From contig CANPVX010000004.1 in NCBI GenBank assembly GCA_947581815.1, positions 1-42,300 of the forward strand: a stretch of 42,300 nucleotides of DNA, read 5' to 3'. A program made the translations under genes and the position numbers. Each line of letters opens with the position of its first letter. Position 1 is the stretch's first letter. The DNA comes from Candidatus Indicimonas acetifermentans. Lineage in GTDB: Bacteria > Gemmatimonadota > Gemmatimonadetes > Palauibacterales > KS3-K002. The notes beneath the pieces are model-generated. The model did not search any database. It was not told where the DNA came from and worked only from the letters and a program-made list of their open reading frames with translations. This document shows, in pieces, positions 20,681 through 26,243 of the stretch.

Positions 20681-22173
20681 GCTTCGAGGGGATCTTCGAC
20701 GTCGTGATCGAGGGCGCGGGCACGGAGCGCGGCGCGAAAGTGCTCACGGCTCCCGAGGGGTTCTACGTCAACCATCACGAGATTCCTTACCCGACCCTGC
20801 TCGGCGTGGCCTTGCGGGGTTCCATCCTGCTGGTGGTTGGGACGCAAGCGGCGATGGCGCTGCGAGGCTCGCGCGACGGGCTGGCCACGCTGGCGGCCGA
20901 GCTGAGAGGCCATGCGGACCTGAACCACCTCGCTCTGCAGGACCGCGAGTCGTTAGAGGGCGAGCGCGTCGTGTTCGCCACACCCGTAGCGGTATCGGGG
21001 CTGGTGGATATGGAGCGCATTAAGGGAATGCCCCTGGTCGTGGTGACCGACTCGGCGCTCCACGTTCTGGAGCGCGGGGGTCGCCAGTACCGCCTCGCCT
21101 GGGACGTCTTCAACAAGGTCGATGTCGCGAAAGCGAAGTTCGGGCAGGTCCTGCGCGTTGGAGCTGGGACCACCAAACTGGAGTTGCTCTATCTCACCGA
21201 TGCTCAGGTCCAGACGATCCGCGGAATGGCCGCGAGGCACTCCGGGACGCTGCTCGGGGTTTCCGAGTCGGCGCAGGCCGCCGCACGTGCCGCAGAGGCC
21301 CCGGCTTCGCCTAGAGTCGAAACTGCCAGCGATACCAGCAAAACCGCCGTGGGGGTGCAGGGGGTGCAGGGGGTGCAGGGGTTGGGAGAGGTCGGGGACT
21401 TGGCTCGCCGCTTCCTCGTGCCGGAGTTCGAGCTGTCGCTGGGAGCCACGGGAAGCGGCTCCGATCGCCCACTCGGGGCGAAGGTCGAGAGGCTTCAGCT
21501 GTCCCCGGTTCTTCCGGTTGGTTTCCTGGAGGAACACCTGCGGGAGCTGAGAACCGTCTACGAGGGAGCGCTCGTCAAGCGCAAGAGGGAAGCGGCTGCG
21601 TCGACGGAACTGGCGGCGGCGGCGGCGGCTCTGGACGGCCGGTCGCTCCTGGAGGACGTGCGGGAGAACGTGAGGGTGGTGACTGAGGCGACTTTGCGCG
21701 CCTACGAAAGACAGGCGCGGCGTATCGCTGCCAACCGACGCATTCCGTGGCGTAAAGCGCGCAAGAAGCACATGCTGGGCCAGCGAGAAACCGGGGGACT
21801 GCAGAACCGGCTGGCCCGTGGGATCACGGGTCTGGAAAAAGCGTCAGACAGCGTGAGCGCGTCGGCGGAGGCCGTTCAGGCGGCCGCGGAGGCCGGTGGC
21901 CCGGAGCTGACGCAAGCTTACGAGGGGTGGCACGCTAGCCTGCGCGAGCTGGATCAGGCCTATGCGGTCGGCTGGACGGAGTTGAGCCGCGAGGTGATCG
22001 CGGTATGGCAGGACACGTTTCTGCCCAAGTTGACGCGCCTGGGCGGTGAACGGCGCAGTTTGCTGCCTCGGCCCGTCAGAGCGGCGATGCTATTCTTCTT
22101 CTTTCTTTTTGTGGCCTTCGTCGTCTACCTCATCGTTACGGGGCAACTTTCGAACTTTATCGAGTTCCAGTAG
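20677..22173 (+). CDS. Hypothetical protein with C-terminal TM anchor
   Basis: MSFEGIFDVVIEGAGTERGAKVL...; terminal segment AAMLFFFFLFVAFVVYLIVTG; ATGA overlap with the HAD gene. Confidence 0.8.
   Translation: MSFEGIFDVVIEGAGTERGAKVLTAPEGFYVNHHEIPYPTLLGVALRGSILLVVGTQAAMALRGSRDGLATLAAELRGHADLNHLALQDRESLEGERVVFATPVAVSGLVDMERIKGMPLVVVTDSALHVLERGGRQYRLAWDVFNKVDVAKAKFGQVLRVGAGTTKLELLYLTDAQVQTIRGMAARHSGTLLGVSESAQAAARAAEAPASPRVETASDTSKTAVGVQGVQGVQGLGEVGDLARRFLVPEFELSLGATGSGSDRPLGAKVERLQLSPVLPVGFLEEHLRELRTVYEGALVKRKREAAASTELAAAAAALDGRSLLEDVRENVRVVTEATLRAYERQARRIAANRRIPWRKARKKHMLGQRETGGLQNRLARGITGLEKASDSVSASAEAVQAAAEAGGPELTQAYEGWHASLRELDQAYAVGWTELSREVIAVWQDTFLPKLTRLGGERRSLLPRPVRAAMLFFFFLFVAFVVYLIVTGQLSNFIEFQ
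21351..21377 (+). repeat. Three perfect 9-bp repeats (gggggtgca)
   Basis: Direct reading; encodes GVQGVQGVQG within the 20677 gene. Confidence 0.92.
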
Positions 22174-22234
22174 TAGGAGTAGAACTGCCGCGAAATTCCC
22201 GGGTCTTCTTAGAGGTTGGAGGCAGCATACCATA

Positions 22235-22924
22235 ATGGCGAGCTCACAGTCGAAGTTTTACGGTACGCTTGGGATCATCGCCCTGGCAGGGGTCGCGCTG
22301 ATCGGGTATGTGGCTACGCGCGAAACCCCCGAGGCGACACTGGCGACCGCCGGGCCCCCGGGGGCTCCGCTAGCGATCGGCGAGCTCATCCCGTTGGATG
22401 TCGGCGTCACTAAGGGGTCTGAGGATGCTCCGGTCACCGTCGAGGAGTACGCCGATTATCAGTGTCCGTACTGCGGCATGGTGGCGCGTTTGACGGTCCC
22501 GACCCTAGTGGAGCGCTACGTCGACACGGGGAAAGTCCGTTATGTTTTTCTCGACTTCCCAGTCCACCCGGGCGACAAGTCGTACTTGGCTGCGGAGGCA
22601 GCTCGCTGCGCGGGCGATCAGGACGCCTACTGGGCGATGCACGATATGCTGTTCGGTCGGATTTCCGAGTGGTCGAGCCGGCGGGACCCTCGCCGGAAGT
22701 TCCGCGACTACGCGGAGGCAATCGGGCTTGATGGGGGCGCGCTTAAGGACTGCGTCAACTCCCGCAAGTATCGCGATGTGGTTCTGACCAATCGAACTCG
22801 GGGGGAGCAGCAAGCCGTGAACAGCACCCCCACGTTCTTCATCAACGGCCAGCGAGTGACGGGTGCCGTTGGCTTCGATCAGCTGGCGGAAGTAATCGAG
22901 GAAGAGTTGTCGAAGTCGCCGTGA
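22235..22924 (+). CDS. Membrane-anchored DsbA-family thiol:disulfide oxidoreductase
   Basis: MASSQSKFYGTLGIIALAGVALIGYV...YADYQCPYCGMVAR...STPTFFINGQRVTGAVGFDQL. Confidence 0.93.
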   Translation: MASSQSKFYGTLGIIALAGVALIGYVATRETPEATLATAGPPGAPLAIGELIPLDVGVTKGSEDAPVTVEEYADYQCPYCGMVARLTVPTLVERYVDTGKVRYVFLDFPVHPGDKSYLAAEAARCAGDQDAYWAMHDMLFGRISEWSSRRDPRRKFRDYAEAIGLDGGALKDCVNSRKYRDVVLTNRTRGEQQAVNSTPTFFINGQRVTGAVGFDQLAEVIEEELSKSP

Positions 22925-23409
22925 ATCGACGACATGCGGTAGCGGTTCTGGCGCTCCTCGGCTCGTTGGACGCGGCGTATCTGCTGCTGCACAAGTTGGG
23001 GTATATCGGCAGCCTGGTTTGCACGGTTGGCAGCGACAGCTGCAACGTCGTGAACACGTCGAGCTACTCCGCGATCTTTGGCATCCCGGTGGCTGGGATC
23101 GGGTTGCTGGGCTACGTCGTGATCCTCGCCTTGGCTGTCGTCGGTTCGGAGCCGAGCAGGCTGGCCGATGTCCGGGTGGACCTGCTGTTAGCCGTCCTGT
23201 CGGGTGGCGGAGTCGCGTTCTCCCTCTACCTTACCTACGCCTCTTTCTTTCACATAGGTACAGCCTGCCCCTGGTGTCTACTGTCTCTAACGCTGATCGT
23301 GGGCATCTTCGCGATCTCGCTCTGGGGAGTCCTCTTCAAAGGAGCGAGCGGGTCGGAAAGGGAAAGGGAGGAAAGGGAGGAAAGTGGGTCGAGCGCCGTG
23401 AGCGCCTGA
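22921..23409 (+). CDS. Vitamin K epoxide reductase (VKOR) family protein
   Basis: GTG start overlapping the DsbA stop; CTVGSDSCNVVNTSSYS and CPWC redox motifs, multi-TM. Confidence 0.92.
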   Translation: MNRRHAVAVLALLGSLDAAYLLLHKLGYIGSLVCTVGSDSCNVVNTSSYSAIFGIPVAGIGLLGYVVILALAVVGSEPSRLADVRVDLLLAVLSGGGVAFSLYLTYASFFHIGTACPWCLLSLTLIVGIFAISLWGVLFKGASGSEREREEREESGSSAVSA

Positions 23410-23487: not shown

Positions 23488-24354
23488 TCAGTGCATGCTC
23501 CAGAACCCCTCGAGAGCCATACCGTCTGGAGATTGACGCAGCTTCTCGAACGCGCGGTTCCGGATTTGGCGGATCCTCTCGCGGGTTACCCCTAGCAAGG
23601 AGCCGATCTCCTCTAGAGTCATCTCCTCGCCATCGTCAAGGCCATAGTACAGCACCAGGATCTTTCGCTCACGCTCCGTCAGGTACTTCGCGAACATCTG
23701 CTGGAGGAAGTTCCGGCGCGCCTGAGACTCGACATCCTCCTGGATGTCTGCCGTCTCCATTCCGGAGAACCGCTCTCCGAACGAGGCGCTATCTCGATCG
23801 GTGCGGTCGAGTGGTGCGTCCAGGCTGAGCTCCGCAGAGGCCACGCGGCGCAAAGCTCTGATCGTATCCACCGGCTCGCCCATTCGATTCGCGATCTCGC
23901 GATCCGTCGGCGAGCGGCCGAGCTGCTGCGTCAACGCCGTCTCGGTCCGCGAAAGCTTCACGAGGTTCGAGTTCTGGTTCAGCGGAATGCGCACCGACCG
24001 CGTCTGCTCGGCCAAAGCCTGTAGCACCGTCTGGCGGATCCACCACACCGCGTACGAGATGAACTTCACCCCTTTGTCGGGGTCGAATTTCTTCACCGCC
24101 TTGAGGAGGCCCTCGTTACCGATGCACACGAGCTCCGCCAAATTCAGCCCGCGGCCCTGATACTTCTTAACGTAGGAAATGACGAACCGCAGGTTCGCGG
24201 TCACCAGCCGTTCCGCGGCCTCCCGGTTGCCAGCCCGCGCCCTACGGGCGATCTGCCGCTCGGTCGCAGCGTCCTCAATGAGTGGATACTTCTCGACGTC
24301 GTGGAGGTACTGATCGAAGGAGTCTAGGGCTTTGGAACCGAAGAACATACGCAC
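23488..24354 (-). CDS. rpoD: RpoD/SigA-family RNA polymerase sigma factor (short, no region 1.1)
   Basis: TANLRFVISYVKKYQGRGLNLAELVCIGNEGLLKAVKKFDPDKGVKFISYAVWWIRQTVLQALAEQ; region 4 TLEEIGSLLGVTRERIRQIRNRAFEKLR. GTG 24354 or ATG 24348 start. Confidence 0.95.
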   Translation of the reverse strand: MRMFFGSKALDSFDQYLHDVEKYPLIEDAATERQIARRARAGNREAAERLVTANLRFVISYVKKYQGRGLNLAELVCIGNEGLLKAVKKFDPDKGVKFISYAVWWIRQTVLQALAEQTRSVRIPLNQNSNLVKLSRTETALTQQLGRSPTDREIANRMGEPVDTIRALRRVASAELSLDAPLDRTDRDSASFGERFSGMETADIQEDVESQARRNFLQQMFAKYLTERERKILVLYYGLDDGEEMTLEEIGSLLGVTRERIRQIRNRAFEKLRQSPDGMALEGFWSMH

Positions 24355-24384: not shown

Positions 24385-24416
24385 AAAAAAAGCGCGAGCC
24401 GCCCAAGCGGTCTCGC
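24385..24416 (-). terminator. Intrinsic terminator (possible attenuator) upstream of the sigma-factor gene
   Basis: Minus strand GCGAGACCGC-TTGG-GCGGCTCGC-GC-TTTTTTT; 9 bp with one bulged A. Confidence 0.8.
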
Positions 24417-24517
24417 TGTGGCTGCACTATCTCACTCGAGTCTCAGGCGCCTCGCCAGCGAGCCTGGTCCGGCAGACTGCAGAAACGGATGATCTCAAGC
24501 TGATGGTAGCCAAGACC
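24385..24517 (-). ncRNA. Structured leader RNA or small RNA upstream of the sigma-factor gene
   Basis: Own promoter, closing stem (GGTCT+TGGCT with AGCCA+AGACC), internal stems GCTTGAG/CTCGAGT and CAGGCTCG-CTGG-CGAGGCGCCTG, ending at the terminator. Confidence 0.55.
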
Positions 24518-24521
24518 GCAT

Positions 24522-24550
24522 AGTATAACACGGGTTTCGCCGCCTGTAAA
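24522..24550 (-). promoter_or_regulatory. Sigma70-type promoter TTTACA-N17-TATACT
   Basis: -35 TTTACA at 24550-24545, 17-nt spacer, TGT-extended -10 TATACT at 24527-24522. Confidence 0.7.
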
Positions 24551-24596: not shown

Positions 24597-25595
24597 CTAC
24601 CCCTCATCCGCGCCAGGAGTTTCCTTTCTCTCGTATCGCTCCTTACCCTCGATCGCTGCCAAAATGACCGCGCTCGGGGGTGCCTCGGGGCCGACGCACA
24701 GCGCGTACGGCGTCGCAGCCTCGATTTCGAGTAGCTCGAGTAGCAGCTCGCCGTTTGCTCGGCCGACTCCCGGGTCCAGCTGCCGGACGTGAGGCCGAAA
24801 GAGGCGCCGGCGGGCGAAGAGAGGCGGGGCCTGGGGTGTGATGACGAGGCGGCCTCTTTGGAAGAGCCAATGGGGACCCAGGCGGGCCAGGGTGATCCGG
24901 GCGGAGCGCACCGCCCCGAGGCGGCGGCCAAGGTGCGCTTCGATGGCTTGGCGCACGGAGCTCGGCAAACGGTCGGCTCCCGTCTCCCAGCGCGTGCGGG
25001 TACGCCCCGGCTGGGCCAGCGCCGCGAACCCGGCGCGGAGCGCGGAGTAAGCGAGCACTCCAAGTCGCGGGGCCCAGGGGAGCGGGATTAGGATCAGTAG
25101 CCCGGCGATCACGGCGGCGGCTTCCGGATAGACGAAGGCCAAGATCCCCAGAGCGGCGGCGAGGAACGTCTGAAGCGCCGTGATGATCCATGGGTGGGGT
25201 GAGGGAGCGGGGGTTCGGGCGGCGACCCGCAAGGCGAGGACGGTGAGCTGCACGAGGAGCGCGATCACGAAAGCAGCCAGCGCGCCACCCCATTGCACGC
25301 TGCGGGGGAGGCTGTCGAGGCCCACTGAGGCCAGGAGGCTCGCAGCCAGGGGGCGCGCCAGGGTGTGTAGGAGCGTCCAGGCAAGGTCGGTGAGCCTGGT
25401 GCTGGAAGCTAGCCACTCGAAGGCGAGGAGGCCCAGGAGGCTACCCCAGACGGCCGGCGTGGCGAGTCCGGCGAGCGATGCAGGTAGAGCGACCAGACCG
25501 AAATAGGCCGCCATTCCGGGCGCGGCGAGCCCTGCGTAGAGCGTCAGGCCGAGGGCGGCGGAGAGGGCAAAGAAGCTGAGGAAAATTGTTATCAA
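24597..25595 (-). CDS. Multi-TM membrane protein (DUF4126-like)
   Basis: MITIFLSFFALSAALGLTLYAGLAAPGMAAYFGLVALPASLAGL... hydrophobic segments. Confidence 0.75.
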   Translation of the reverse strand: MITIFLSFFALSAALGLTLYAGLAAPGMAAYFGLVALPASLAGLATPAVWGSLLGLLAFEWLASSTRLTDLAWTLLHTLARPLAASLLASVGLDSLPRSVQWGGALAAFVIALLVQLTVLALRVAARTPAPSPHPWIITALQTFLAAALGILAFVYPEAAAVIAGLLILIPLPWAPRLGVLAYSALRAGFAALAQPGRTRTRWETGADRLPSSVRQAIEAHLGRRLGAVRSARITLARLGPHWLFQRGRLVITPQAPPLFARRRLFRPHVRQLDPGVGRANGELLLELLEIEAATPYALCVGPEAPPSAVILAAIEGKERYERKETPGADEG

Positions 25596-25613: not shown

Positions 25614-26243
25614 CTAGTGCCCAGTGCGGCCAGCGTCGATGGCCTCGAGGATGCGTGCCCTCAAGTCCTCGTAGGACCCGAGCTCGGCAAGGGACTGGCC
25701 GTTGAGCACAACGGTCGGCGTCCCCGTCGCGCCGGCGCTCACGGCTTCCAACCAGTTCGCCTCGACGGCCTCCAGCGCCGCCTTCGACTCGAAGCAGCGG
25801 GCGAACTCGCCTTTTTCCAGCCCGAGGTTCTCGGCATAAACGACCCAGAGTGAGCTGGGGACCGTTTCACCCCTCCATTCAGGCTGCCTCACGAAGAGGT
25901 AGTCGTGGTAGGCCCAGAACAGCCCGGCTTCGCCGGCGCACTGGGCGGCCTTGGCAGCGGCGGCGGCGTTCGGGTGAATCGTGGTGAGCGGGAAATAAAC
26001 GTAGCGCAATCGCAAGAATCCTGTCCCGATGAACTCGGCGACGAGAGCGGGTGTGACGGCGAGGGCGAAGTTTCGGCAAGCGGGGCACTCGAAATCGGAA
26101 TAGACGGTCATCTCGACCGGCGCCTCGGCCGCGCCCAGCAGTTTGAAGTCCTCCTGTGCGTTCGTGGCGCCGCCGAACCCAACGAGGAGCGCCAGGGCGC
26201 CGAGGCTGGACCGCAGGGTGCTCTGCATATTCACATTCGACAA
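25614..26243 (-). CDS. Secreted DsbA-family oxidoreductase
   Basis: Signal peptide, YSDFECPACRNFAL, GTPTVVLNGQS. Confidence 0.9.
   Translation of the reverse strand: MSNVNMQSTLRSSLGALALLVGFGGATNAQEDFKLLGAAEAPVEMTVYSDFECPACRNFALAVTPALVAEFIGTGFLRLRYVYFPLTTIHPNAAAAAKAAQCAGEAGLFWAYHDYLFVRQPEWRGETVPSSLWVVYAENLGLEKGEFARCFESKAALEAVEANWLEAVSAGATGTPTVVLNGQSLAELGSYEDLRARILEAIDAGRTGH

Follow-up and report, generated by a model that had tools for sequence, protein, structure and literature searches.

The window, by which we mean the whole 42,300-nucleotide stretch of DNA analysed here, is one entire contig (C4) of a draft genome of 2.39 Mb that is 91.7% complete. Its minus strand carries a gene for a sigma-70-family sigma factor, preceded by a promoter, a leader with a rod-like hairpin and an intrinsic terminator, and further upstream by the gene for a DUF4126-domain protein (Table 1). 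Relatives show the same succession, from promoter through rod and terminator to the sigma gene. The search for this gene covered 60 related genomes, and all eight genomes of the same family were examined; judged by the sigma factor, Gemmatimonadota MAGs are the closest relatives within the named collection.

Table 1. Positions of the features at the sigma-factor locus, numbered from the first letter of the window
Feature	Position	Strand	Basis or remark
Sigma-70-family sigma factor, 286 aa from ATG	23488..24348	(-)	Regions 2, 3 and 4; no region 1.1
Intrinsic terminator, GCGAGACCGC-TTGG-GCGGCTCGC-GC-T7	24385..24416 (hairpin 24416-24394, spacer GC, T7 24391-24385)	(-)	Folding
Rod-like hairpin, conserved core of the leader RNA, ~95 nt	24419..24512	(-)	Covariation, consensus fold
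5′ arm of the proposed closing stem, GCGGTCT-TGGCT	24508..24519	(-)	Pairing not conserved
Expected transcription start	24514..24516	(-)	Predicted from the -10 element, 6-8 nt downstream
Promoter TTTACA-N17-TATACT	24522..24550 (TTTACA 24550-24545, 17-nt spacer, TATACT 24527-24522)	(-)	Motif scan
DUF4126-domain gene, upstream, co-directional	24597..25595	(-)	Neighbour in 8/8 family genomes

The sigma-factor gene, its promoter and its terminator

The original prediction, made from this DNA alone, described a primary-type sigma factor starting at a GTG at 24354. All close relatives support the ATG at 24348 instead, where translation most likely starts. The genome holds two further RpoD-like genes, and the primary role is better fitted by the sigma gene on contig C75. 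With the RpoD model TIGR02393 its product reaches the highest score, 259 bits, compared with 225 for the window sigma. Its identity to the Bacteroidota sigmas examined is 51-57%, where the window sigma reaches 40-42%. The window gene is accordingly not the primary sigma factor; it is a well-conserved paralogue, probably of group 2.

The promoter was found as predicted, and it is the sole sigma-70-type site within 1.4 kb, where 0.1 would be expected from shuffled sequence. Sites of the form TTTAC(A/G/T)-N17-TA..(C/T/A)T lie 170-207 nt upstream of the sigma-gene coding match in all eight family genomes. An invariant TCTTG (24515-24511 in the window) starts at the predicted transcription start in all seven homologues of the leader. 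The leader of ~130 nt and its terminator were likewise confirmed, the terminator hairpin having a folding energy of -14.4 kcal/mol. No promoter-like site was seen by motif scan between terminator and start codon in the window or the family leaders, so the sigma mRNA must derive from terminator read-through. The transcription that reads through would begin at the leader promoter or come in from the upstream gene.

A canonical intrinsic terminator between promoter and sigma gene, the arrangement of a transcription attenuator in the broad sense, is conserved in six of the eight family genomes. Since it stands between the gene and its sole recognisable promoter, control by premature termination is plausible, and most transcripts probably stop short of the sigma gene unless RNA polymerase is somehow allowed to pass. 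To this extent the attenuation that had been suggested for the sigma gene holds up; the two-stem switch that was to bring it about does not (see below). In two other members the terminator lacks its U-tract (G006, leader L004) or is missing altogether (G003, L005), and the rod is retained in both. Termination therefore cannot be the sole function of the leader. The two members speak for a role of the rod itself, and they make it less certain that termination is the only mechanism.

A conserved rod-like hairpin in the leader RNA

The consensus structure of the leader is a single rod-like hairpin with a separate terminator hairpin. Across seven homologues, two-sided changes were found in 11 pairs of this structure, compared with 5.5 ± 1.7 in shuffled alignments (one of 500 shuffles was as high) and with 3-5 pairs when the structure was slid along the alignment. 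Paired cells made up 85%, against 39-47% in the slid controls. The rod consensus fold has a z-score of -3.45; none of 300 column shuffles was as good, the shuffles folding at -8.7 ± 2.6 kcal/mol. On the sense strand the rod consensus energy is -17.5 kcal/mol, compared with -4.6 kcal/mol for the antisense. Because the antisense folds far worse, the unit is the RNA of the sense (minus) strand. A DNA-level palindrome was rejected on the same grounds, as conserved G-U pairs are what make the antisense strand fold so poorly. Taken one sequence at a time, rod folding is exceptional only in L008 (z -3.6), moderate in the window (z -1.9) and unremarkable in energy for L003, L004 and L006.

Sequence conservation follows the rod. 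Its two strands are 71-72% identical across homologues, compared with 49% for the rod apex, 50% for the terminator and 42% for the linker; promoter, linker, terminator and downstream leader together span 42-57%, and the rod strands are best conserved. A CGTCTTGAGGTCGTCCGTTTCCGCC-type segment is highly conserved in the alignable leader of the seven family genomes. The rod is probably under selection, since its strands have kept this identity while the neighbouring DUF4126 protein has diverged to 45-51% in six of seven relatives (33% in the seventh, G005). A leader peptide, or an attenuator based on one, was considered and rejected. Several relatives do keep open the frame that begins with TTG at 24512. 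However, there is no codon periodicity in the leader, changes are evenly distributed over codon positions, and in L006 the frame is shifted.

The most divergent family member, G005, also has a promoter (TTTACG-N17-TATCTT) and a strong terminator before its sigma gene (L010, ~1330-1480). Despite these, its leader was rejected as a homologue: the interval between promoter and terminator is unrelated structured sequence with a different fold and gives no covariance-model match. Such a leader, along with the rods retained where the terminator is missing and a terminator of only 50% identity, would suit a passive structured 5′ UTR, in which the hairpin serves to protect or shape the mRNA and expression is held back by a leaky, unregulated terminator. 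The conservation of the rod strands exceeds, however, what a merely stabilising hairpin needs, and we hold a passive leader to be decidedly unlikely.

The leader RNA was found in seven of the eight family genomes, representing five genera, as a single copy directly before the orthologous sigma gene in every case. Its covariance model scores 96-148 bits in exactly those seven. Run against the 35 remaining genomes of the order, the same model gave no match. Sampling of the class (299 genomes) and the phylum (399) yielded no convincing hit, nor did viral contigs or a search for further copies within genomes; weak matches at E 0.05-1 (16-22 bits) were mostly short partial rods. Leaders of 32 other orthologous loci (22 of the same order, 10 named records) showed no terminator. 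As the leaders of the order's family f2 and of more distant orthologues lack one, the element seems to have been added to the sigma gene's leader in the one family.

This fixed position bears on whether the terminated RNA of ~130 nt could be a free-standing small RNA, acting in trans or binding a protein, with the sigma gene expressed by leak-through. It has its own promoter and terminator, its hairpin is compact and stable, and both rod strands are conserved beyond the needs of pairing. A free-standing RNA would nonetheless have to be reconciled with a single copy that always lies directly before the same gene, in seven genomes of five genera, with a sigma gene that has no other promoter, and with two members that lack a good terminator. 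We regard it as unlikely.

The proposed closing-stem switch and 6S RNA

The original prediction envisaged a switch in which formation of a long closing stem precludes the terminator and vice versa, the geometry of an ON-type riboswitch or attenuator. The underlying complementarity of GCGGTCT-TGGCT to AGCCA-CAGCG-AGACCGC is present in the window. A window transcript starting at 24519 is predicted to fold the closing stem and lose the terminator. Nevertheless, the outer three pairs of the stem use 24519-24517, which lie upstream of the predicted RNA start (~24516-24514), and for RNA from 24516 the minimum-energy fold contains the rod (with a TGGCT/AGCCA foot) and the complete terminator together. 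For each of the six homologues that have a terminator hairpin, adding its energy to that of the rod nearly reproduces the minimum for the whole RNA, with a difference of ~1-2 kcal/mol; L004 is the exception, its full fold being more stable still.

Comparison of relatives points the same way. Cells of the closing stem are paired in 59.0% of cases, compared with 59.1% after shuffling, there is no excess of two-sided changes, the outer pairs are broken in most relatives, and no conserved antiterminator pairing was found in the homologues. Of the covariation that had been proposed as a check, the rod and terminator thus show it and the closing stem does not. For L008, and to some extent for L004, TCTTG is predicted to pair with the terminator 5′ arm before the 3′ arm has been made. 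The pairing speaks for a switch and may matter kinetically, but it does not form a conserved helix. Overall, a switch between closing stem and terminator is very improbable. In the predicted folds rod and terminator are not in competition by themselves, and regulation, if any, must therefore come from a factor that acts on the rod or on the polymerase.

A 6S-like small RNA had been named as an alternative for the terminated transcript. Like 6S RNA, the leader gives a terminated rod-like RNA, here loosely tied to sigma-dependent transcription through its neighbour, and in favour of a divergent 6S RNA is also that RF00013 recognised no 6S RNA in the window's family, nor in almost any other relative examined. 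Unlike 6S RNA, this RNA is fixed before a sigma gene, its rod measures ~95 nt against the 187 positions of the model, and its consensus below the apex has small bulges only, with the large central bubble that resembles an open promoter absent. RF00013 gave no match in the window even at E 10, and normal 6S RNAs of the class are detected by the same model. That the leader is a divergent 6S RNA is scarcely credible. The 6S RNAs that are clear (53-57 bits, above the RF00013 cut-off) lie at L032 and L033, in two genomes of the same class.

Readings of the leader and its parallels

We put at roughly 50% the probability that this is the leader of a group-2-like sigma mRNA in which a conserved long hairpin acts as a recognition element and most transcripts are terminated before the gene. 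The single promoter would give mostly a stable RNA of ~130 nt, and read-through would give the sigma-factor mRNA. The hairpin would most likely be recognised by a protein, a small molecule or RNA polymerase itself, and this recognition would determine how much read-through occurs or what becomes of the leader. More tentatively, the element may be a new, family-confined cis-regulatory RNA of Gemmatimonadota, whose rod senses a cellular signal and which governs, by way of read-through, the expression of an alternative sigma factor. If this sensor reading is true, a global transcription programme is coupled to an RNA sensor; if read-through is regulated, there is a defined RNA element for study in a phylum where regulation has received hardly any attention.

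Alternative sigma factors are controlled at many levels. The leaders of the rpoS and rpoH mRNAs of Enterobacteria are structured and act mainly on translation, and that of rpoS also with Rho. They share with the present leader an RNA structure ahead of an alternative sigma-factor gene, a likeness of general description. They differ in that here an intrinsic terminator lies within the leader. An intrinsic terminator and a conserved structured leader directly before an RpoD-like sigma gene are unusual.

Closer parallels are offered by attenuators and terminator-type riboswitch leaders, which have the same succession of promoter, structured conserved leader, intrinsic terminator and gene, with no further promoter. 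Unlike these, the leader has no mutually exclusive antiterminator and no known ligand class, and its terminator is not in all homologues. As to an aptamer, the leader contains a conserved, covarying hairpin, but this is a single rod and not a conserved multi-branch pocket. None of the Rfam 15 covariance models matched the leader, all riboswitches and 6S RNA (RF00013) included, and a literature search on this sigma-gene leader found nothing. The leader is best read as a new orphan structured RNA, restricted to one family and absent from Rfam, of a known general kind. It resembles the orphan candidate RNAs that comparative genomics has brought to light (Weinberg et al. 2010, PMC2864571), which are structured, conserved, covarying, so far without an assigned function and associated with a single gene. 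The main text of that study contains none of the terms sigma factor, rpoD or Gemmatimon. What is added is one more orphan structured RNA, well supported as a conserved RNA and with a putative function.

The DUF4126 gene accompanies the sigma gene in all eight family loci and was not found near it at the other loci tested, whether of the same order or more distant. The family may therefore have gained both the DUF4126 gene and the leader RNA at this place. Also flanking the sigma gene are DsbA-like thioredoxin proteins and a VKOR-like protein, encoded at 22046-23409 on the plus strand and 25614-26243 on the minus strand. The VKOR-like neighbour adjoins the sigma gene in several genomes of the order's other family as well.
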